DNA of 64,000 nucleotides from Haliclystus octoradiatus (taxonomy: Eukaryota > Cnidaria > Staurozoa > Stauromedusae > Haliclystidae): contig OU744446.1 of NCBI GenBank assembly GCA_916610825.1, positions 3,853,001 to 3,917,000 of the forward strand. The letters are read 5' to 3'. The position numbers were made by a program, and so were the translations under genes. How positions within the stretch are numbered: position 1 is the first letter of the stretch; every line of letters begins with the position of its first letter. Positions 6,044 through 54,559 of the stretch are shown piece by piece. The notes under the pieces were generated by a model that was given only the letters and a program-made list of their open reading frames with translations, was not told the origin of the DNA and did no database searches.

Positions 6044-7764
<1,721 letters not shown>

Positions 7765-11379: not shown

Positions 11380-11388
11380 GTCATCATC
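11380..11388. repeat. Left 9-bp target site duplication of the large transposon
   Basis: GTCATCATC here is repeated exactly at 16009-16017, just outside the two inverted repeats. Because the motif is itself repetitive, a 7-bp duplication with an element two bases longer is also possible. Confidence 0.75.
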
Positions 11389-11813
11389 AGCAAGGGGGAC
11401 AAACCGTGATTGGTTAAAAAAGTAAACTTGCGTCCTGTAAATACAGCTTCGAAGTAGCTTTGATTTGACATTCTAGCCAATAGAGTGTCAGAAAGAAGTC
11501 AACAGTTTACTTTTTCGCGCCATTTTGACGATATTTTGTTAAAATTTACTAGCCTACAAACCTTGATCGCCTATAAATGGTTTCCAAACGGATTGTAAAA
11601 ATTTCTTCACTTTTGAGTTGCTTTATACTTGTTCTTGGTCTGTTTATAACATTAGCATGATCGGACGATAGCATGTTGAGATATTTTAAGTTTTCTCAAA
11701 ACTTACATTCACGACGCTTCGAAGGAATTTTTTGAAATTCTTTCCAACTTCAATCTGCAAATAATCTGGCGATCGCTGATGAAACAAGCTTGAATATTGA
11801 TTAAAATATAGCA
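11389..11813 (+). repeat. Left terminal inverted repeat of the 4.6 kb transposon
   Basis: Reverse complement of 15585-16008 with three differences noticed. Contains no gene, but short open frames (11274-11480) cross it and are not real. Confidence 0.95.
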
Positions 11814-12042
11814 ATATATGTATTAGAAAACTGCATGTATATATAAATCAAACATCATTCTCATTCTTAGTTCATATTTTGTTCGTTTGATTATCTTAAT
11901 CTTGCTGTTACCCTGTTGTACGCCACGCTGGAATCCGCGCGAATTTCAAACGATGGTTATGAAACATTTTAAATAAACAACTTGAAAGTCAGCAAAATCA
12001 GCTGTTTTTAAATCCCAAAATTTACTACCAAAATGAGTAAAT

Positions 12043-15000
12043 GTGTTAGGGGTTAAGAGAAAATCCTGTTCAAACAAACACCATGAAGCATGGAATTCCA
12101 CATCACAATACTTGATTGACCTTGGCACAAGACTTAGTCGCTCAAATATTTTTTCTAAGGCATTTTTTTATAAAAACTTTGGTAAACACGTTTTTTTATG
12201 TTCACATTGTATTTTTAATTATTTAAGTAAAAGGGAATACACAGCAAGGCTGCCTTCTAATTTTGAACAACATTATTCATTCTCCAAGGTAAGAATTAAA
12301 GAAACGATACATATACATTGAACATTTCTTACTCCTGAAATTTGTGATAAATGACAGCTGATTTGACAGTTCAATGAGATAATTATCGCTGTCATTTATC
12401 TCAAATGTTTTAGAAACAAGAATTACATAATTGAAAATAAATAAAAAGATAGTTATACAACTGCGGTATATCCTGTATATAATAGCATTAAAAAATATTA
12501 GTCAACAAAGCACCACATTACCTAATAATTTAATATGTATGTGTATATATTTATGACTTTTACAAATTATTCCAAGATACAATTTGTCCACAACATCCTT
12601 GAAGCAGCAAATTCAAGCTTTGTAATTTTTGTTTTTATTGCAATTTTCCTTAAATAATAATACTATTATTACAAATAACTATTCTTTCTTCGTTTTAGTT
12701 CCAAGCAATCCGTTCCGAATTGGACGTAGGCGACAGTTCGCAATCTGAGTATTCTCAAGAAATAGTGCAGACGTGCAGTACCAGCAATGATTCAAATGAC
12801 ATAGATAATGATAACAATGATATAGTAGAGTCATCAGTAATACTGGACACTAAAACGACAAAACATTTAGTTATTGAATCTGAGTTATATGTTCAAATCA
12901 AGAAGTTAAGAATCAATATTAGAAAGCATTATGGAGATTCAGTACCACCATGTGGTACAGATGACTTCAAGCATTTATGTACTCAGGCTGGCTCAGCAAC
13001 ATTATTTTCCACTCTTCTTGAATCTATGACTACCACACTCGATGGACCCATAAAAGTAAAATCTAATGAAAAGAAAGTTATATCTATTATTTTTACCCTA
13101 ATGTTTGGCCAGTCTCGAAAAGACAACTGGTTTCAAGCAACGGTCGGACAATTAATTGGGGCGAAAGGAGTAGGGGAATCCGGAATGTCACTTTTAAATG
13201 GATGTGGTGTCTCTGTTTCATCCAAAACAAATACTAGAAACAATAAAAAACTTGCACAGACTCATTTTGAGAAAGTAAAGCTATTTATTGATAATGCAAC
13301 CAGAAAAGAAGAACTACTTGTGTTGATGATCGATGATTACAGTAATATACACACAAACAGACGCCCAAGGGATCAAAAAACATCAGAAGCACGCAGTATG
13401 GCGACTATTTTGTTAAAACGATTCCCAACAGTCAATGCAATTCGAGCTGGCACAACAAATATTGCGCAATCCCCAAATAAAGTAGACCCAAATTTAATAA
13501 TTGAGTATTTACACTTACATGAGGCCAACATGTTCAAATCTTTTTCAAGTTCAATGCCCCAGTGGCTTACATCTATATTTTTTGATCCTGAAAAAGAAAG
13601 GTCAAGGCTACAAAGTCACAACTACCAGGCTTACAATCAAGTCAGAGAAATGAGGTCTATGGAGCATTGCTGCCTGATTGATGAAATTGAGCTCAAGTTA
13701 AAATCCTACGAAAATTTTTCTACAGCTGTAAGTCATGCTATTATCAATGGAATGGATAAATATTTACAAACTTTTATATGTCCATTACCTGGCGATTGGC
13801 CGGCACAATTTTATATAAGACAGCTACAATATTCAGCATCTCCTGAAAGTTCAGATTCAAAATATTTCAAAAACATTATCCCCTTTATTGGTCCCCTACA
13901 TGTGCAGCTCAATGCCAGAGAATGTGTGTGTCTCTTGAACATTGAATTGTTCAAACTGCATACACAGCAATTTTTGGTAAATTCAAGCTTTTTGCGAAGA
14001 AACAAAAACCATGGAGGATTTCCTTTTGGAAGAAGTTTTATATGGAGGTTGGACGATCATTAGAAATCAGATCTTGATGCAGTTTGAGGGGTGCAAAAAC
14101 ATTGAATTTTTATATTTTGTCAATTTATTCGATAACTATCTTCCTCTGGTTTTGTCAATTTATTCTGTTACATTTAAACAAGACAATGCAGTGGAATATA
14201 ATTACTCAATGCTAAGAATGTGGGTAATGTTCTTTTGTTTTAAAAGACATCACTACCAACAACAAAGCACCACTGATATGGCTCTCAAACATTTTTTATT
14301 GGAAAAAAATTGAGCATCCACTTTTTTACCTTTTTATAAATAATTTGAATACCCTAGATGAATATCCTGTTGAAAATTTTCATTCAACTTTGAGATCGAT
14401 TTCAGCCCCACAAGATGACGCTGACAAAATAGCAATAAAAGCAAGATCATGGGAGTCCTCAAAGGTAAACCGCTCTGATCTAAAAGACAACTTTGTCACA
14501 TCCAAGAGTCATACATTTGGTAGGTCAGAGTTGGAATTCTTGAAACTTGAGGCAGCCAAATTTTTGATGTCTGTTCTTAGTCAAATTAGTAAAAACAAAA
14601 ACTCTGCTCAACAAGTCCAGCGTCCCCCACGGAAAAAGAAAACATCACCAAATACCAATTGCTTATTGCCACATGAATTTTCTGGAGGAAATGTGCCGTT
14701 TTAAACGATAATTAAAATGGAAAAACATATTACCAACATTTCCCAGGAAAATCAATCAACAATCTATGCAACACACATTCTCAAGCATATTTTTATTTTT
14801 ATCTTACAGTCGTTGTGACTTACAGCAATGTGAAAAAGAAGAGGTGGATTTTGAAATTCTGCATGGTTGTGGCCATTCATATCATTTATCATGCCAAAAT
14901 GAAAGCAGATCATGCCCAATTTGTATGCCTAAAATTGAAGAAAATATAAGAACATTGTCAAACATTGCGGCAGAATCCATAACCAATATTACCAACAAAA

Positions 15001-15162
15001 AAAATTGATCACTGTGAAGATAATGAAGATGAAAATAGTACAGATGATCACGATGATGATCCATTAAACATAGGCCTAATTAATGTATCAAGTAATCTAG
15101 ACAGAGAGCTCCTTGATCTCCAGAGGGAGCTATTTTCATGGGGATTTATCGAAGGATTGTGA
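12043..15162 (+). CDS. Transposase-like protein with C-terminal RING-like motif; frame broken at homopolymers
   Basis: Exon 1 (about 12043-12288, donor GTAAGA) contains a CSHC pair within HVFLCSHCIFNY. It joins in phase 0 to an exon starting 12699 (acceptor TTTTAG). The main body includes LMIDDYSNIHTNRRPRDQ, and DEYPVENFHSTLR lies further on; its acidic residues are candidates for a DDE-type catalytic set. The reading frame shifts at about 13971 (T run), 14031 (T run), 14302 (A7) and 14997 (A8). A probable exon from 14810 encodes C-x4-C ... CGHSYH-x2-C ... CPIC, a RING-H2-like zinc site, then an Asp/Glu-rich tail ending at 15162. The protein lies between the TIRs, so it is the obvious transposase candidate. 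I recall related uncharacterised proteins in marine invertebrates, which is memory and not a search. True start uncertain. Confidence 0.7.
12340..12406. repeat. Small hairpin inside the transposon intron
   Basis: Arms ATTTGTGATAAATGACAGC (12340-12358) and GCTGTCATTTATCTCAAAT (12388-12406) pair with one mismatch over a 29-nt loop. It lies in the intron 12289-12698 of the transposase gene. It may be a nested MITE or an intron structure. Confidence 0.5.
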
Positions 15163-15584
15163 TGTTGCTAAATAAATATTCTTTATCTCAGTGTATAGCT
15201 ATAGCCTGCTTCGATTATAACCTATAGTGGTGTAATAGAAGCATATTTGATGATAGCTTGATAGCCTAGTTTATAGAGATATATGTATAACGCTATAGGC
15301 CTAGACATTTAACATTATAAGTAATATTGTAAAATCAAGTTATTAATCAAGTATTTTATTTCTCGAAAATACATTCGTAGATACAGAAAACAGCATATCA
15401 AATATGCAGATGATACTAGACGAGATAGTTTTGCGATTGGAATTGCCCACCATGCACGTTATAGAAAGATATCGTCATGCTCTTAATGGAGTTAATGAGG
15501 CATCATCAAATGTAGGATAAAAACAAAATTAATTGAATTTCTAAACACAAAATATTGATACAGTCTAAAATAATTTACTTACAT

Positions 15585-16008
15585 GCTATATTTTAACCAA
15601 TATTCAAGCTTGTTTCATCAGCGATCGCCAGATTATTTGCAGATTGAAGTTGGAAAGAATTTCAAAAAATTCCTTCGAAGCGTCGTGAATGTAAGTTTTG
15701 AGAAAACTTAAAATATCTCAACATGCTATCGTCCGATCATGCTAATGTTATAAACAGACCAAGAACAAGTATAAAGCAACTCAAAAGTGAAGAAATTTTT
15801 ACAATCCGTTTGGAAACCATTTATAGGCGATCAAGGTTTGTAGGCTAGTAAATTTTAACAAAATATCGTCAAAATGGCGCGAAAAAGTAAACTGTTGACT
15901 TCTTTCTGACACTCTATTGGCTAGAATGTCAAATCGAAGCTACTTCGAAGCTGTATTTACAGGACGCAAGTTTACTTTTTTAACCAATCATGGTTTGTCC
16001 CCCTTGCT
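15585..16008 (-). repeat. Right terminal inverted repeat of the 4.6 kb transposon
   Basis: Inverse of 11389-11813. It ends in CCCCCTTGCT, followed by the second GTCATCATC copy (16009-16017). Confidence 0.95.
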
Positions 16009-16017
16009 GTCATCATC

Positions 16018-17911
16018 AACTAGTTCAATAAAGAATTGTTGCGAATTATCATCATTTTCATTTTCCCACATAAATTTAAATTAATTGTTTTACAGAGGGA
16101 CTAATGAACAGTAGCTACAGGTATAATTGAATATTATATAGTTTAATAGAAAGTGCAGTAATAGTGTAAAGTTTTCAGATGGATCATGGTTTTGCGAATT
16201 TACTAAGATAAACACCATCTACAATTCGCAAGATGCAGTCACGCGACAAATATCAACACACAGCTGGAAGTCTTGGTGAAGCACCAGACACTACTAGTAC
16301 AAACCTTTGCTAAATATAGCACATTCTAATCTCATTTAAGACTTCGCTGAAAGTCCAATTCATATTTTGAGAATGGAATCGTGATATATAAAAATTCAGA
16401 CATCATAAAGCAATTCTGTAATCTTTTTCCCGTCTCTATGACCATTTTATATGCCTTTGAGTTAAGAAGGGTTTGACCGTAAAATTACTGCCCTCGTAAA
16501 AGCTGTCCTGCTGTGATTCCATTGTTTGATCGGTTCAACACCTCTACTGCACCTTGCGAATTCAACTAATCAGCAATCAATATTCCAACGATCCTCAGAG
16601 CTAAGTACAACTCAATAATTAATTTCCATAAATTTTGTTTAACTTAATTTTAGTTTACATAAATTTTTCAGATCATTTTTAATTTTATACAGGACTCATA
16701 TTGATAACAGTGTTTCACACGGAAAAAACTTTTGTGTTATTATTATTATTTATTATACAACATTCGAGTGGAATATCAATCATAACTATTTAGTTTGTAA
16801 TTATTGTTTATTGCTGTAAAATTTCATTTTTATAATCAAGATTTTCAATTGTTATGCCTTTAGTGTGTTTTAAATATAACCGATTATTTTTCCCAACTAT
16901 ATATATCTATTCACGTTCATAATAATATGTACTAGTTTGGAAAATTCTGTTGGTAGTTTAACTTTCACAGTACTATCAAAAAGAGATAATTACGTGTATA
17001 TTATTAAGTTAGTTAATTGAAATCAATAATATTGAAATAATAACATATATTTGTGGTCCATATTAATGTCATCATTTTAGACTTTAGGTTATACTTTGAA
17101 AGCTATATATATATATATATGCATATAAAACACTGTTTTCTTAATAAGCTATACGATAATGGTATGTAATTTGGCGACATTATACATGTAATAGTTGCTA
17201 TATGGCATGTTCAAGCAGTTATTCAATCATAATAGATCATTCAATCAATCAGAAAAATCATGAATATGCGCTTAAACTAGTTCAATGACGAATTGTTGTG
17301 TGGATTACGTCTCTTTCATCGCTTGTCTCTCCAGCTAAATGTGTATATGAACCATTACAATATATAACAATTTTTTTTCACTTCTACCAAAACAGCGTAT
17401 GTTTTTGTGTTTGTGTTTAAAAGCCTCATTTTCATATAATTACTATATGATTATTTCAAAAAGTCTTTCATACTAGTTTGAACAGCAAGTATTCTTTGTT
17501 AAACCACAGCAAATAATTGAGGTCTGTGACATAAATAAATGAAATCCATTTACATTTTAAAAATTAATTATAAACGGTTTGGATTTATTTTCTTAGAAAA
17601 TCAATAGAATATCATTTTAGCAACGTTTTAAGTCTATTATGTTGCCACCGAGAACAACAACTTGTCAAATACAGACAGTTTTAGTTACATAATTTCTATT
17701 TTTCCACCCGTTCTGTTGAAGTTAAGGCGACGAAAAATACTTGCTTGATCGATAATGATTTTTTCATTTCAACTATTTAACTTGAAAACACAAAACACTA
17801 TTCTTTCATTCTTTGAAAAAATTGTTATAATCAATTATTTATATTCGTACAAAATTATTGTGGCGAATGTCGAGTTGCAAATAGTTGAGTTTTTATGTAA
17901 TTTTCAACACG
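16018..17911. other. Intergenic region upstream of the Kv gene
   Basis: 1.9 kb, strongly AT-rich, with a short (TA)n stretch near 17105-17120. No coding exon or repeat family was recognised. It presumably includes regulatory sequence of the channel gene, but no specific site can be supported. Confidence 0.5.
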
Positions 17912-19174
17912 ATGTTATATGAAAAACATATGTGTATGTGCTCCGTATCATCAAGTATGAACACACAGCTATATACTAATACAAGTAATCACTTATTGCA
18001 TGTCGAAAGAAATTTTGAAAAATGTGAAGATGCGGATCGAATTATACTTAATATTCGTGGTACAAGATTCGAAACATTTGTTGATACCTTAAAGAAATTT
18101 CCAGGCACGAACCTAGGAAATATTGAATGGTTAAATTTATTTTATGATCATAATTATAATGAATATTATTTTGAAAGAAATGAGCATATATTCCCAGCAA
18201 TATTATTCTTTTATCAATCGAATGGTATTTTAGCCAAACCAAGTGATGTATTAGCATCGGAATTCAAAGAAGAATTACAATTTTATGGTTTAAGATCATT
18301 AGAAGATATTATAAATGAAAATAACTCAAATCAATCAAATGACACATGCCTTTACCAATTATTTGAAAAACCTGAAGCAACAAAATTAGGTTTATTATTT
18401 TCATATTTCTGTTTATTTATGATTACTGCCTCATTAGTGTCGTTATCTTTAGAAACACTACCTGTTTATCGTCAATCTTCAAAACTTTGTAACTCAAAAA
18501 CATTTGATAAAGAAACAAGTATATGGATTGTATTAGAAGGAATATATACAGTTTGGTTTACAGTAGAATACATAGGACGTATTATAAGCAGACAAAATAA
18601 GCAACAATTTATATTTTCATTTCTTGGTTTTGTGGATTTATTTGCAATAATACCATTTTATGTTGCAGTAGTTCTACCATGTGAAAAAGCAACAAAGGCC
18701 TTATCAACAGTTCGTGTTTTAAGAGTGTTATCAGTTGTACGGGTATTAAAGCTCTATAGATACAGCTCTAGTTTACAAATAATTTTCAAATCACTTGTTT
18801 GTTGTAAGCAGCAGCTAACATCACTTTTGGCATTTTTCGTTGTCAATTGTTTAGTATCTTCAAGTGTTATATTCATGGTAGAGAAAGACGATGGAAAAAA
18901 TGGATTTTCAAGTGTATTTGACACCATGTGGTTCTGTATTATCTCAATGACAACAGTTGGATATGGTGATGTACACCCATCGACAGCACTAGGGAAAGTT
19001 TTAACAGCAATATGCATTTTACTTGGTATTATATCATTATTTTTATTATTTATACCTATTTATTTATCATATTTTACAAAACTATACAGAAATAAAGAAG
19101 GATTGGATCTTTATGAAGATGATGAAGATTTTCGAAGTAGTAATAATTCATTCACGACTAATGTTACGCAATAG
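17912..19174 (+). CDS. Voltage-gated potassium channel alpha subunit, Shaker-related, intronless
   Basis: 420 aa from ATG 17912 (other ATGs at 17930, 17936 and 17957 are possible). The T1/BTB tetramerisation domain begins at about residue 42 (DRIILNIRGTRFETF) and includes FYQSNGILAKPSDV. Six membrane segments follow. S4 reads TVRVLRVLSVVRVLKLYR. The pore filter TTVGYGD starts at residue 347. The protein should form a K+-selective voltage-gated tetramer in the plasma membrane. Two oddities: aligned to Shaker S4, the third gating arginine (R3) is a serine, and S6 has FIPIYLSYF where Kv1-4 have a PVP hinge. The C-terminus is short, with an acidic patch (DLYEDDEDF) and no obvious ETDV-type PDZ ligand. 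The full family length is present and the frame is intact. An AATAAA lies about 30 nt after the stop. Confidence 0.93.
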   Translation: MLYEKHMCMCSVSSSMNTQLYTNTSNHLLHVERNFEKCEDADRIILNIRGTRFETFVDTLKKFPGTNLGNIEWLNLFYDHNYNEYYFERNEHIFPAILFFYQSNGILAKPSDVLASEFKEELQFYGLRSLEDIINENNSNQSNDTCLYQLFEKPEATKLGLLFSYFCLFMITASLVSLSLETLPVYRQSSKLCNSKTFDKETSIWIVLEGIYTVWFTVEYIGRIISRQNKQQFIFSFLGFVDLFAIIPFYVAVVLPCEKATKALSTVRVLRVLSVVRVLKLYRYSSSLQIIFKSLVCCKQQLTSLLAFFVVNCLVSSSVIFMVEKDDGKNGFSSVFDTMWFCIISMTTVGYGDVHPSTALGKVLTAICILLGIISLFLLFIPIYLSYFTKLYRNKEGLDLYEDDEDFRSSNNSFTTNVTQ

Positions 19175-39439: not shown

Positions 39440-41060
39440 GTTCAATAAATTTGCTTTTTATTAAGTGCTAGTTAATGCCATGTTTAAATAATTATCAGTT
39501 GTTTAGTATTTCATAAATTTCTTGAACTTGACAGGGTCAGGCTCGGTTATGGGAAAATGGCGTTAATAAATCAAATTGCAAGAATAAATCGTAGCAAATC
39601 ATTGTTATGATCTAATAGTAGTTATTTGCCACAAATTTAAATATCTCAGTTGTTTAAAACGTTATAAATAATACAACGAATTTTTAATTGCAATACATCT
39701 TAATTATTTAAACAGTAAATATTTATACGACTGATTGTCTTTATCTTCTTCTTTGTTTCCCCTTTTGTGTAGCATATCAGGGTCATGTACCGAGGTAGAA
39801 TTGTTTTAGCTTTCATATCGGTCAAATCTGACCGAGCTGGTTGAAGATACGATATCGGGTACGATTTCGGTTCTGATCGGATGGGCATCTTTATACTGTG
39901 CCTGTTCTGTAATTCGAATAGATATGTTATATTACCATAGCGTACTTGTTGCACTTCGAACAGTGGAAGAACAATGTTTTGTTTTCCTTCTGCATTCCCA
40001 ACCACATAAAATATTTGTTATTTCACTTCTTAATGCATGTAAATTCCAACTGTACACAATCGGATTAATTGTTGAATTGAACAATAATAAAAGAAAACTT
40101 GTCAGATACATTGCTTGAATAGTTGGATCCGTATTGCTGAAGTCTCTTACAAATCCTGACATGATTGCATATGGTATATGACAACAAACCATACAAAGAA
40201 ATATAGCTAACAGTGTTCTTGAGAGACGGCGTTGACGATCCGTTTTATTATCCGATTGCATACTTGAATCTCGTTTTATCATACTACGTGTTAAAGTCAA
40301 AATTTTGAGATGAACAATTAAATTCAATGGTAATGCCAAAATAAGTAATGCAGTGAATGTATATGTAAATAATACCTTTTCAGGCACAAATGAAGAACTG
40401 GTACCAATAGCTATGCTTAAAACGGATGACGTAAATGTTAATATCCGCGTAAAACGTAACGTGAATACTTTGCCATATGTAAAAGGATGGAAAATTGCAA
40501 TGTAGCGATCTACTGCTATTAAAATCATTCCACTAACAGTCATACATAATACTGAAAAAGCCACCATAGTAGCTGGTGCCATATATGAGCATGTTACCTT
40601 TCTAGAATCTTCTAAACTCATGTACGCGAAAAATGGCATTAGAATTAAACCAGTTAAACCATCACTAAGATTCAAATAACCAATAAATACGTAACATGGC
40701 TTTTTCAGTTTGCGAGATGTAAATATAACAAACATTGCTAGAAAATTTAAAAATACTGTTGGTAAACTTAGCAAACTGCATATCGTTCCAGTGATCACTC
40801 CTTCTAATGTTAATCCATGTGGGTTAATATCAAATATTCGTAATGAGTCTTCACAATTTATATCGAATATACTTCTTTGATAATTTGTAACTGTGTCATT
40901 CAACGTTGTTGTATTCATAGTGATTGGCAAAACCATATTTCATAAGTTATATTTCAAAATTAATTATGCATTTATTTCGCTCGAATCAAAACAATGAAGT
41001 GCCACCACTTTTAGCGCCAACCACTTGATAATAACGCAACCAAACTAACATTAAGGCCTG
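39440..41060. repeat. Segmental duplication, copy 1 (with 49015-50640)
   Basis: Both flanks and the GPCR gene align almost continuously with 49015-50640. The downstream flank shares 'aagtgctagttaatgccatg' and the upstream flank 'cttttagcgccaac'. Identity is highest within the gene. Confidence 0.9.
39932..40918 (-). CDS. Lineage A rhodopsin-class GPCR, duplicate 1
   Basis: 328 aa from ATG 40918 (MNTTTLNDTV). An upstream in-frame ATG at 40936 is absent in the duplicate, so the conserved one is preferred. N-terminus has NTT and NDT sequons and a conserved NCEDSLRIFDINPHGLTLEG block. KKPCYVFIGYLNLSD lies at ICL1/TM2, AVDRYIAIF at the end of TM3, CCHIPYAIM in TM6, NPIVYSWNLHALRSE in TM7/helix 8. 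ECL2 (FVPEKVLFTY) is short and cysteine-free. The C-terminus has cysteines after helix 8 (ILCGWEC), possible palmitoylation sites. Intronless and intact. Paralogue of 49524-50510 with about 15 substitutions. Confidence 0.93.
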   Translation of the reverse strand: MNTTTLNDTVTNYQRSIFDINCEDSLRIFDINPHGLTLEGVITGTICSLLSLPTVFLNFLAMFVIFTSRKLKKPCYVFIGYLNLSDGLTGLILMPFFAYMSLEDSRKVTCSYMAPATMVAFSVLCMTVSGMILIAVDRYIAIFHPFTYGKVFTLRFTRILTFTSSVLSIAIGTSSSFVPEKVLFTYTFTALLILALPLNLIVHLKILTLTRSMIKRDSSMQSDNKTDRQRRLSRTLLAIFLCMVCCHIPYAIMSGFVRDFSNTDPTIQAMYLTSFLLLLFNSTINPIVYSWNLHALRSEITNILCGWECRRKTKHCSSTVRSATSTLW

Positions 41061-49014: not shown

Positions 49015-50640
49015 ATATTCAATAAATTTGCCTTTTACTAAGTGCTAGTTAATGCCATGTTTAAATAATTATCGGTTGTTTCGTATTTTCATAAATTTCT
49101 TGTACTTGATGGCGGTCAAGCTCGGTTATGGGAAAGTGGCGTTATTGGCTTTAACCAATCAAATTGTAAGAATAAATCGTAGCAAATCCTTGTTATGATG
49201 TAATCATAGCATTTTCCTCAAATTTAAATATCTCAATTATTTTAAAACTTTATAAATAATACAACGAATTTTTAATTGCAAAATATCTTAATTATTTAGA
49301 AAGTTAATACTTATACGATTGATTGTCTTTATCTTCTTCTTTGTTTCCCCTTTTGTGTAGCATGTCAGGGTCATGTACCGAGGTAGAATTGTTTTAGCTT
49401 TCATATCGATCAAATCTGACCAAGCTGGTTGAAGATACGATATCGGGTACGATTTCGGTTCTGATCGGATGGGCATCTTTATACTGTGCCTGTTCTGTAA
49501 TTCGAATAGGATATGTTATATTATCATAGCGTACTTGTTGCACTTTGAACGGTGGAAGAACGATCCTTTGTTTTCCTTCTGCATTCCCAACCGCATAAAA
49601 TATTTGTCATTTCACTTCTCAGTGCATGTAAATTCCAACTGTAGACAATCGGATTAATTGTTGAATTGAACAATAATAGAAGAAAACTTGTTAGATACAT
49701 TGCTTGAATAGTTGGATCCGTATTGCTGAAGTCTCTTACAAATCCTGACATGATTGCATATGGTATATGACAACAAACCATACAAAGACATATAGCTAAC
49801 AGTGTTCTTGAGAGACGTCGTTGACGATCCGTTTTATTATCCGATTGCATAGTTGAATCTCTTTTTATCATACTACGTGTTAAAATCAAAATTTTGAGAT
49901 GAACAATTAAATTCAATGGTAATGCCAAAATAAGTAATGCAGTGAATGTATATGTAAATAATGCCTTTTCAGGCACAAATAAAGAACCGGTACCAATAGC
50001 TATGCTTAAAACGGATGACGTAAATGTTAATATCCGCGTAAAACGTAACGTGAATACTTTGCCATATGTAAAAGGATGGAAAATTGCAATGTAGCGATCT
50101 ACTGCTATTAAAATCATTCCACTAATAGTCATACATAATACTGAAAAAGCCACCATAGTAGCTGGTACCATATATGAGCATGTCACCTTTCTAGAATCTT
50201 CTAAACTCATGTACGCGAAAAATGGCATTAGAATTAAACCAGTTAAACCATCGCTGAGATTCAAATAACCAATAAATACATAACATGGCTTTTTGAGTTT
50301 GCAAGATGTAAATATAACAAACATTGCTAGAAAATTTAAAAATGCTGTTGGTAAACTTAGCAAACTGCATATCGTTCCAGTGATCACTCCTTCTAATGTT
50401 AATCCATGTGGGTTAATATCAAATATTCGTAATGAATCCTCACAATTTATATCGAATATACTTCTTTGATAATTGATTGTAACTGTGTCATTCAACGTTG
50501 TTGTATTCATAGTGATTGGTAAAACCTAAATTGTATTTCTAGATTAACTATGTATTTATTTCGCTCTAATCAAAACAATGTAGTGCCTACGACTTTTAGC
50601 GCCAACAATAATAATGCAATCAAGTTAATAACATTAATAT
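49015..50640. repeat. Segmental duplication, copy 2 (with 39440-41060)
   Basis: Same content and orientation as copy 1, including the 3' flank. About 10 kb separates the copies. The high identity indicates recent duplication or gene conversion. Confidence 0.9.
49524..50510 (-). CDS. Lineage A rhodopsin-class GPCR, duplicate 2
   Basis: 328 aa from ATG 50510. Nearly identical to 39932-40918. Differences include an extra Ile in TVTINYQ, TSCKLKK for TSRKLKK at ICL1, SYMVPAT for SYMAPAT, and a C-terminus ending QSATSTL. DRYIAIF, CCHIPYAIM and NPIVYSW are intact, and so is the frame. Its start region is copied head-to-head at 50885-51063, and direct repeats lie on both sides, so the locus has been through local rearrangement. 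Confidence 0.93.
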   Translation of the reverse strand: MNTTTLNDTVTINYQRSIFDINCEDSLRIFDINPHGLTLEGVITGTICSLLSLPTAFLNFLAMFVIFTSCKLKKPCYVFIGYLNLSDGLTGLILMPFFAYMSLEDSRKVTCSYMVPATMVAFSVLCMTISGMILIAVDRYIAIFHPFTYGKVFTLRFTRILTFTSSVLSIAIGTGSLFVPEKALFTYTFTALLILALPLNLIVHLKILILTRSMIKRDSTMQSDNKTDRQRRLSRTLLAICLCMVCCHIPYAIMSGFVRDFSNTDPTIQAMYLTSFLLLLFNSTINPIVYSWNLHALRSEMTNILCGWECRRKTKDRSSTVQSATSTL

Positions 50641-53340: not shown

Positions 53341-54324
53341 CTATAGTGTACTTGTTGCACTTTGAACAGTGGAAGAACGATCCTTTGTTTTCCTTCTGCA
53401 TTCCCAACCACATAAAATATTTGTCATTTCACTTCTTAATGCATGTAAATTCCAACTGTAGACAATCGGATTAATTATTGAATTAACCATTAATAAAAAC
53501 AGACTTACTAAATAAATAATACGAATAGTAGGGTCTGTATCACTAAAATCTCTTATAAATGCTGAAATTATTGCATATGGTATATGACAACAAACCATAC
53601 AGATAAATATTGCCAGAAGTGTTCTAGATAGACGTCGTTGACGAATTACCATGTTATCCGATTTAATATTGGAATCTCTTTTCAGCATCTGACGCGTCAA
53701 AAATAGAATTTTGAAATGAACAATTAGATTTAATGGCAACGCGGTAATAAGTAATGCAGTGAATGTATATGTAAATAATACCTTTTCAGGTACAAATAAA
53801 GAACCGGCGCCAATAGCTATGCTAAAAACGGATGACGTAAATGTTAATATCCGCGTAAAACGTAACGTGAATACTTTGCCATATGTAAAAGGATGGAAAA
53901 TTGCAATGTAGCGATCTACTGCTATTAAAATCATTCCACTAACAGTCATACATAATACTGAAAAGGCCACCATGGTAGCTGGTACCATATACGTACAAGT
54001 AATTTTTCTAGAATCTTCTAAACTCATATATGCAAGAAAAGGTAGTACAATTAAACCAGTTAAACCATCGCTTAGATTCAAATAACCAATAAATACGTAA
54101 CATGGCTTTTTGAGTTTGGACGATGTAAAAATAACAAACATTGCCAGAAAATTTAAAAACGCTGTTGGTAAACTCAGCAAACTGCATATCGTTCCAGTGA
54201 TTATTCCTTCAATTGTCAATCCATGTGGGTTAATATCAAATATTCGTAATGAATCTTCACAATTTATATCGAAAACACTTCTTTGATGATTTGTAACTGT
54301 GTCATTTAAGGATGTTGAATTCAT
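53341..54324 (-). CDS. Lineage A rhodopsin-class GPCR, third member of the close group
   Basis: 327 aa from ATG 54324 (MNSTSLNDTV). The frame extends further upstream but without an ATG. Same blocks as the 39.9 and 49.5 kb genes (NCEDSLRIFDINPHGLT, KKPCYVFIGYLNLSD, AVDRYIAIF, CCHIPYAII, NPIVYSW) and an almost identical C-terminus (ILCGWECRRKTKDRSSTVQ), but more divergent in TM2, TM5-ICL3 and TM7. The 3' part of the coding sequence is closer to the 49.5 kb gene than the rest, which may reflect gene conversion. Intact, intronless. Confidence 0.93.
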   Translation of the reverse strand: MNSTSLNDTVTNHQRSVFDINCEDSLRIFDINPHGLTIEGIITGTICSLLSLPTAFLNFLAMFVIFTSSKLKKPCYVFIGYLNLSDGLTGLIVLPFLAYMSLEDSRKITCTYMVPATMVAFSVLCMTVSGMILIAVDRYIAIFHPFTYGKVFTLRFTRILTFTSSVFSIAIGAGSLFVPEKVLFTYTFTALLITALPLNLIVHFKILFLTRQMLKRDSNIKSDNMVIRQRRLSRTLLAIFICMVCCHIPYAIISAFIRDFSDTDPTIRIIYLVSLFLLMVNSIINPIVYSWNLHALRSEMTNILCGWECRRKTKDRSSTVQSATSTL

Positions 54325-54559
54325 AATTTTTTGTTTAAGATACGATTGACTGTATTCCAAATTGATCGTTTGTAGTGAAATATTATAATTGGATGAAGTG
54401 CAACGATGAACTCGTGTGGCATATGGCTAATATATGAATCTAGCGCAATATACAGGCAGGGCATATCACAAAAGCAAATGTATTGGTCCGGTCGTGGCTT
54501 CTTCGTGACCTCAAGGCAGTTGAGATAGGAAGTGTCTTTGTTATAAGACATTGAATTAA

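Follow-up and report, generated by a model that had tools for sequence, protein, structure and literature searches.

A probable recently active DNA transposon family with a RING-tailed transposase-like protein in Haliclystus octoradiatus

We found in the genome of Haliclystus octoradiatus a family of class II cut-and-paste elements that was very probably active until recently, and whose full copies encode an 884-residue, three-exon protein, most likely the transposase. The inverted repeats, the target-site duplications and the multiplicity of copies can be read directly in the DNA, and so can the intact genes, the conservation of a second family and the lesions common to a group of broken copies. 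By its sequence, the protein had no match to any catalogued family with which we compared it, in Pfam and among solved structures.

Structure and decay of the window copy

In the window, that is the whole stretch of 64,000 nucleotides that was analysed, the element spans positions 11389-16008 and is bounded by terminal inverted repeats (TIRs) of 425 bp with 3 mismatches (99.3% identity). Complementarity is 99% over arms of 426 nt (11388-11813 and 15584-16009), the outermost base pair of which is coincidental, and the true TIR length is 425 bp. Rfam and tRNA scans of the window gave no match. The features of this copy are the following.

11380-11388 (no strand): left 9-bp target-site duplication GTCATCATC, same as 16009-16017
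11389-11813 (forward strand): left TIR of 425 bp, starting AGCAAGGGGGACAAACC, which pairs with 15584-16008
12033-12288 (forward strand): exon 1, with an N-terminal C-x4-H...C-x2-C putative zinc site and a 1-nt insertion, aligned to the intact copy L019
12289-12698 (forward strand): intron 1, GT...AG, its border also found in the second family
12699-14645 (forward strand): remnant of exon 2, the putative transposase core, with broken frames (open over 683 codons in L019)
13332-13337 (forward strand): aspartates of the IDDY block, D212/D213 of L019 exon 2, candidate first catalytic acid, invariant in both families
13794-13796 (forward strand): aspartate of the GDWPAQF block (exon-2 residue D366), invariant in both families and a candidate for the second catalytic acid
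14372-14374 (forward strand): glutamate of the DEYPVENFHS block (exon-2 residue E558), invariant in both families and a candidate for the third catalytic acid
14810-15162 (forward strand): exon 3, with a RING-H2-like site, an acidic stretch and the LDLQRxxFSWG end, the tail being off-frame in the window copy
15584-16008 (reverse strand): right TIR of 425 bp, which pairs with 11389-11813
16009-16017 (no strand): right 9-bp target-site duplication GTCATCATC, same as 11380-11388

The preliminary description had placed the IDDY block, the DEYPVENFHS block and the RING-like exon in the product of one spliced gene. All of them are present in the window copy with intron-like borders; the frames of this copy are broken, so that the claim holds for the parts and not for the product. 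Compared to intact copies, a 1-nt insertion in exon 1 leads to a stop after MSKCVRG, and the interval from IDDY to ENFHS has two 1-nt deletions and one 4-nt insertion. In addition, the end of exon 2 is lost with its splice donor in a deletion of 474 bp, and the acidic tail and the RING are in different frames owing to another 1-nt insertion. The window copy is dead and yields no functional protein.

The frame-breaking indels of the window copy are common to five other copies (L009-L013), which lie at other sites and have other duplications. Since the same lesions occur at different sites, intact copies most likely moved these six in trans; gene conversion is a less likely way for the lesions to be shared. 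A search for the empty site of the window copy, the sole copy for which it was done, recovered only its own flanks. For this species, PMC9975415 lists RNA-seq data (ERR9434978) and an alternate haplotype (GCA_916610655.1).

Copies across the genome and a second family

A DNA transposon with near-identical 425-bp TIRs had been proposed from the window alone, and the genome bears this out and speaks against a coincidence. First, the 425-bp end gave 41 matches in the genome, with 40 of 77 candidates scored, and a 29-bp end pattern gave 58 matches at up to 2 mismatches vs none for a reversed control pattern. Second, when the duplication around the window copy was followed up in other copies, as had been suggested, exact 9-bp duplications were found in 16 of the 19 two-ended copies, the window copy among them; the others have a 10-bp duplication, an 8-bp duplication and, for L016, none. 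Third, the 19 copies are 97.9-99.98% identical. Complete copies measure about 5.09 kb. Seven full-length copies are free of indels, and five of these have an intact reading frame of 884 residues in three exons with GT-AG borders. Nonsynonymous/synonymous ratios within the family ranged, pair by pair, from 0.24 to 1.0.

We also identified a derivative of 155 bp, flanked by a 9-bp duplication of its own, GCCATTGTT, in which no more than 40 bp of the right end are left. Mobility may need only about 40 bp of one end. Alternatively, the derivative was shortened once inserted, and it is no proof that 40 bp are sufficient.

The same genome carries a second family, whose exon 2 core is about 47% identical to that of the first and whose exons keep the same splice phases; its protein has 960 residues. 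Its TIRs are about 413 bp long and start with AGCA, TGATTGGTT being common to both families, and a 9-bp duplication was found in three of four readable copies, the fourth having none. Between the two families, nonsynonymous change amounts to 0.39 per site and synonymous change to 0.73, and the acids of the IDDY, GDWPAQF and DEYPVENFHS blocks are invariant. In exon 1, where few sites could be compared, the ratio is 0.87, with little sign of purifying selection.

A transposase-like protein with a RING-H2-like C-terminus

The view that the protein fits no named superfamily by sequence was upheld for the libraries searched. At E ≤ 10, Pfam had no match to the exon-2 core in the first family or in the second. 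The hAT, piggyBac, Tc1/mariner, Harbinger, P, KDZ and other superfamilies have Pfam models, none of which matched the exon-2 core at that threshold; likewise, a Pfam scan of the exons in the window left the core without a match. Sequence searches of the core against the PDB gave at best four chance-level matches (best E 0.22), none of them a transposase by name, and no match in the other searches. No relative turned up when viral contigs were scanned with the protein and with three alignments, or when prokaryote genomes were scanned twice; all of these scans were seeded on short patterns and can miss relatives. An exon-1 frame of the second family gave only weak ferredoxin-type Pfam matches (best E 0.04), whose beginning lies upstream of the ATG in non-coding sequence. 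For the RNase H-like core that the preliminary description suggested looking for, with the IDDY aspartate and the ENFHS glutamate in its active site, a structure prediction from a seven-row alignment (A3) reached a mean pLDDT of 33.2 and a pTM of 0.23, too low for a fold search.

As the preliminary description had it, the transposase-like gene ends in a RING-H2-like tail: the 884-residue intact copies carry in exon 3 the ligands C-x4-C, C-x-H-x2-H-x2-C and C-x2-C, in C3H2C3 order, and 8 of 8 are identical in both families. The best Pfam E-values for the RING were 0.0043 in the first family and 0.0035 in the second, both short of the curated cut-offs. A profile search of solved structures with this region gave 13 matches at E ≤ 1, each weak (E 0.028-0.84); judged by names and known domain content, all 13 belong to RING-type E3 ligases or to IAP/EL5 chains. 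The ligand order is that of RING-H2 E3 ligases of the BRE1, IAP and RNF types, to which the profile matches are weak. The first ligand pair differs, being C-x4-C in the element and usually C-x2-C in RING-H2.

Two known systems invite comparison. RAG1 combines a RING finger with a DDE core; however, neither RAG1 nor Transib gave a sequence match to the element protein, and Transib duplications are of 5 bp. In the P element and THAP9, the last catalytic acid is followed by a hydrophobic-S-x-L/I-R motif, the duplications are of 8 bp and the repeats are short. Pfam includes P-element models, and the core of our element has no Pfam match.

Based on these features, we propose how the family would move. 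The ends of the repeats would be bound by the N-terminal zinc site. In the middle of the protein, a catalytic region that is most likely of DDE type, with D212/D213, D366 and E558 of exon 2 as candidate acids, would excise the element and then integrate it into target DNA with a stagger of 9 nt. The RING-H2-like site would either contact partner proteins or serve as a ubiquitin ligase. Copies such as that of the window would be mobilised in trans by the intact ones.

Affiliation and significance of the family

We tentatively propose, at clearly less than even confidence, that the element founds a superfamily of animal DNA transposons not described before, with at least one family very recently active in Haliclystus octoradiatus. 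Such a superfamily would be characterized by 9-bp duplications, repeats of 410-425 bp ending AGCA...TGCT and a single three-exon transposase. The latter would start with a CHCC zinc site, continue with a core that resembles no catalogued transposase and end with a RING-H2 site and an acidic tail.

The element may already bear a name in Repbase or Dfam, a prospect that we put not far below even. Similar proteins presumably occur in other marine invertebrates. However, a search of the openly licensed literature for such an element found none.

It is unlikely, in our view, that the family is a very diverged branch of Mutator (MULE) that inherited its TIRs and 9-bp duplications while its transposase drifted past detection. 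PMC6446971 describes TIRs of hundreds of bp as common in MULEs, with duplications of 8-11 bp, and the duplications of 9 bp and repeats of 413-425 bp found here agree with the Mutator criterion given there. In the same paper, Rehavkus, the outgroup row of Table 1, has a PHD finger, 9-bp duplications and repeats of 26-400 bp, and one Ghost MULE element is reported to have a RING ORF. The preliminary description had called long TIRs with a zinc/ubiquitin-type C-terminus an unusual combination, which has to be softened: according to PMC6446971, long TIRs with 8-11-bp duplications are typical of Mutator, and Mutator/MULE elements including Rehavkus and Ghost show long TIRs, 9-bp duplications and zinc modules on the transposase or on a second ORF. 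A difference persists, as our element has its RING in the transposase-like protein itself, as the final exon, whereas that of Ghost, as described there, is a separate ORF. Against a MULE origin, the exon-2 cores of both families had no match at E ≤ 10 to any Pfam model, that of MULE included. With 112 of 112 candidates scored, the MULE profile matched this genome 95 times, and never at an element locus when the list was compared by eye. MULE membership by profile was rejected, the core being unmatched and the 95 genome matches all lying elsewhere.

We consider it distinctly improbable that the element belongs to a larger unnamed group including Pfam DUF6589 (PF20231), which is multi-copy in this genome. 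By eye, three of four DUF6589 C-terminal sequences show R-x-WKF... followed by N[IV]PxDLxLEH, like LRMWVMFF followed by DEYPVENFHS in the element. DUF6589 has a GDQLT motif, and seven of its places in the genome score identically, as transposons would. However, the hhalign probability of DUF6589 against the core was 0.2% with all four sequences and at most 0.5% with trimmed parts of three of the four, and none of the 34 genome matches of the DUF6589 profile falls at an element locus. Kinship with DUF6589, considered for its motif order, found no support in the profile comparison, and a search of the openly licensed literature for DUF6589 gave no paper.

Finally, a repeat that is no transposon, either a host gene duplicated between inverted repeats or an assembly artefact, has a negligible chance of being the explanation: its sole point is the left flank common to L014 and L015, as in a local duplication, and it is contradicted by differing exact duplications at 16 of 19 sites and by the short derivative, which shares the ends of the element and is flanked by a duplication of its own.

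About two dozen superfamilies of eukaryotic DNA transposons are counted in Repbase, according to PMC4455052 and PMC12730594. A recently active family whose transposase lies outside the catalogued domains would add a candidate to them, and the intact copies make that candidate directly testable. If short ends suffice for mobility, as the 155-bp derivative hints they may, this would be useful for a compact assay. The conservation of all eight ligands of a RING-like module at the end of the putative transposase itself, between families about 47% identical, suggests, from the sequences compared, that ubiquitin-type contacts matter for transposition or its control, contacts that to our knowledge have otherwise been studied mainly in RAG1.

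Ends and copies of the element

The window copy is bounded by inverted repeats of 425 bp that are 99.3% identical, with GTCATCATC on both flanks, and the coordinates and ends given in the preliminary description were right. The repeat finder counted a 426th pair, which comes from a chance match with the duplication.

Features of the element and of a miniature derivative (window positions unless a contig is named)
11389-16008: element, window copy, 4620 bp
11380-11388 and 16009-16017: flanking duplication GTCATCATC, on both sides of the window element
G000:C1:1538058-1538257: second miniature derivative, 200 bp, identified by its end pattern

Elsewhere in the window, a perfect (TAAA)n array of ~331 copies (6044-7366, 1.3 kb) opens long meaningless minus-strand frames. 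By eye, the frame at 17885-19174, which lacks introns and contains TVGYGD, resembles a voltage-gated potassium channel, and several intronless frames within 26120-62695 resemble rhodopsin-type receptors, those at 39932-40939, 49524-50525 and 53341-54426 being close duplicates as judged by eye.

We searched the genome as 33 contigs (261.9 Mb); the jrHalOcto1.1 genome note for Haliclystus octoradiatus gives 33 scaffolds, with nine chromosomes in its Table 2 (PMC9975415). The 425-bp repeat had at least 41 matches (40 of 77 candidates scored), and a 29-bp end pattern allowing up to 2 mismatches found 58 ends, 29 per strand, compared with 0 for the reversed control pattern. By comparing 22 fetched stretches (L-numbers) with the window copy, 23 copies in all, we found both ends in 19; L014, L015, L024 and L029, with one end only within the fetched stretch, were omitted from the counts. 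Mapping the other copies and their duplications, proposed earlier as a check, gave an exact 9-bp duplication at 16 of the 19 (the window copy included), among which there is no strict consensus. Among the other two-ended copies, the duplication is 10 bp in L017, 8 bp with the terminal base altered in L030, and absent in L016. Directly before L016, itself a complete copy, lies a 97-bp piece of another element end (L016 306-402; C8:4701432-4701528); perhaps L016 inserted adjoining or inside another end. The one-ended L014 (C6:21113806) and L015 (C6:21084747) lie 29 kb apart, and the 20 bases to their left are the same, as would result if one insertion had been duplicated locally.

The end pattern also revealed two facing pairs, at 155 bp and 200 bp spacing. 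The 155-bp derivative has its own 9-bp duplication, GCCATTGTT, and takes at most 40 bp from the right end and the remainder from the left, which suggests that short ends may suffice for mobility; alternatively, it could have shrunk after insertion.

Intact and broken genes

The 19 two-ended copies are 97.9-99.98% identical and fall into two subfamilies. Group B copies usually measure ~5090 bp, the exceptions being L017 (381 additional bases) and L022 (201 fewer). Seven of them have no indels relative to the reference L019 (L016, L018, L019, L020, L021, L023 and L027) and, spliced at GT-AG borders, yield one frame of 884 residues, intact in L016, L018, L019, L020 and L023 (5/7) and interrupted by internal stops in L021 and L027. 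This count covers the seven spliced copies; others whose exon 2 is open, for example that at C5:18808805, lie outside it.

Group A comprises L009-L013 and the window copy (99.3-99.98% identity). All of them carry one extra nucleotide in exon 1, two 1-nt deletions plus an insertion of 4 nt in exon 2, and 1 or 2 inserted nt in exon 3; with these frame-breaking indels, group A should not make the protein. The window copy has an additional 474-bp deletion, which takes in the exon-2 splice donor, and its RING and acidic tail are in different frames. The single product carrying all blocks that was first proposed is confirmed as a frame in the intact group B copies and is not confirmed for the window copy.

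The group A copies occupy different sites, each with a different duplication; these common lesions, like the ends, duplications and intact genes, are seen in the sequence itself. Gene conversion might have spread the lesions, which is possible but less likely, the different sites and duplications being most simply read as group A having moved after its gene broke, using protein made elsewhere.

A second family and the conserved protein

An exon-2 protein search of the genome (E<=0.01) gave at least 72 matches (65 of 114 candidates scored), among them a second family ~47% identical to the first in exon 2. One of its copies, L053, has exon 2 open throughout, and its spliced protein has 960 residues; splice positions and phases are the same in both families. 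The second-family repeats, ~413 bp, usually start with AGCATAGTC, and AGCA and TGATTGGTT are common to the repeats of both families. We inspected the ends of five second-family copies: three of the four readable at both ends have 9-bp duplications (AGTTATCAA, GAAGGGCCC and CAGCTTGCC), one has none, and the fifth copy lacks an ordinary left end. A third lineage is indicated by further broken copies, most of which share 60-68% identity with the second family.

Comparison of the two intact proteins gives 0.39 nonsynonymous and 0.73 synonymous changes per site; the ratio between families is 0.205, with synonymous sites near saturation, and 0.87 for exon 1 alone, with few sites. Within the first family, the pooled ratio is 0.49 when five group A copies are compared with four of group B, and 0.62 within a set of eight group B copies. 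Values for individual pairs lie between 0.24 and 1.0; the top value belongs to a pair of broken group A copies, as would be expected once function is lost.

Both families keep C-x4-H and C-x2-C in exon 1, plausibly a zinc site. The best kept exon-2 blocks are MIDDYxNIHT, PGDWPAQFY, IGPLHVQLNARECVCL, DNYLPxVLSIYS, FFCFKRHHYNKAPL and DEYPVEN; aspartates 212/213 and 366 with glutamate 558 are natural candidates for a catalytic triad. In exon 3, all eight RING-H2 ligands are kept in both families, in the order C-x4-C, C-x-H-x2-H-x2-C, C-x2-C, together with an acidic stretch and a terminal LDLQRxxFSWG. A two-family tail profile gave 13 matches among solved structures at E<=1, each weak (best 0.028), and all 13 are E3 ligases or IAP/EL5 proteins, which carry RINGs; Pfam RING models scored the tail below their cut-offs. 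A single structure model (mean pLDDT 33.2, pTM 0.23) scored too low for use.

Likeness to known systems and proposed mechanism

Long repeats and 8-11-bp duplications are Mutator traits (PMC6446971), and the Haliclystus element resembles Mutator to that extent. Sequence does not place it there: no Pfam model matched the exon-2 core of either family at E<=10, and none of the 95 matches of the Mutator (MULE) profile in the same genome lay at element loci (compared by eye). For the libraries searched, this agrees with the earlier failure to place the element in a named superfamily. No significant relative was found among PDB sequences (best E 0.22), and none in scans of viral contigs or prokaryote genomes. 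DUF6589 (PF20231) is multi-copy in this genome (34 matches), and seven of the matches (G000:C5:3555725 and six others) score the same, suggesting that it is itself transposon-borne here. Its motif order resembles that of the core in three of four sequences by eye; profile comparison gives no support for it as a relative. Searches of openly licensed papers showed no element with the same feature set.

Most likely, intact group B copies would express the three-exon protein, which would bind the repeat ends, excise the element and insert it with a 9-nt stagger, the 9-bp duplications arising as host repair fills the gaps. Group B-encoded protein would also mobilise group A copies and the short derivatives, and the RING may serve to recruit host proteins or to modify them. 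We infer the DNA binding, the catalysis, the mobilisation in trans and the role of the RING. As a cut-and-paste transposon the element is of a known kind; its putative transposase lies outside the families searched.
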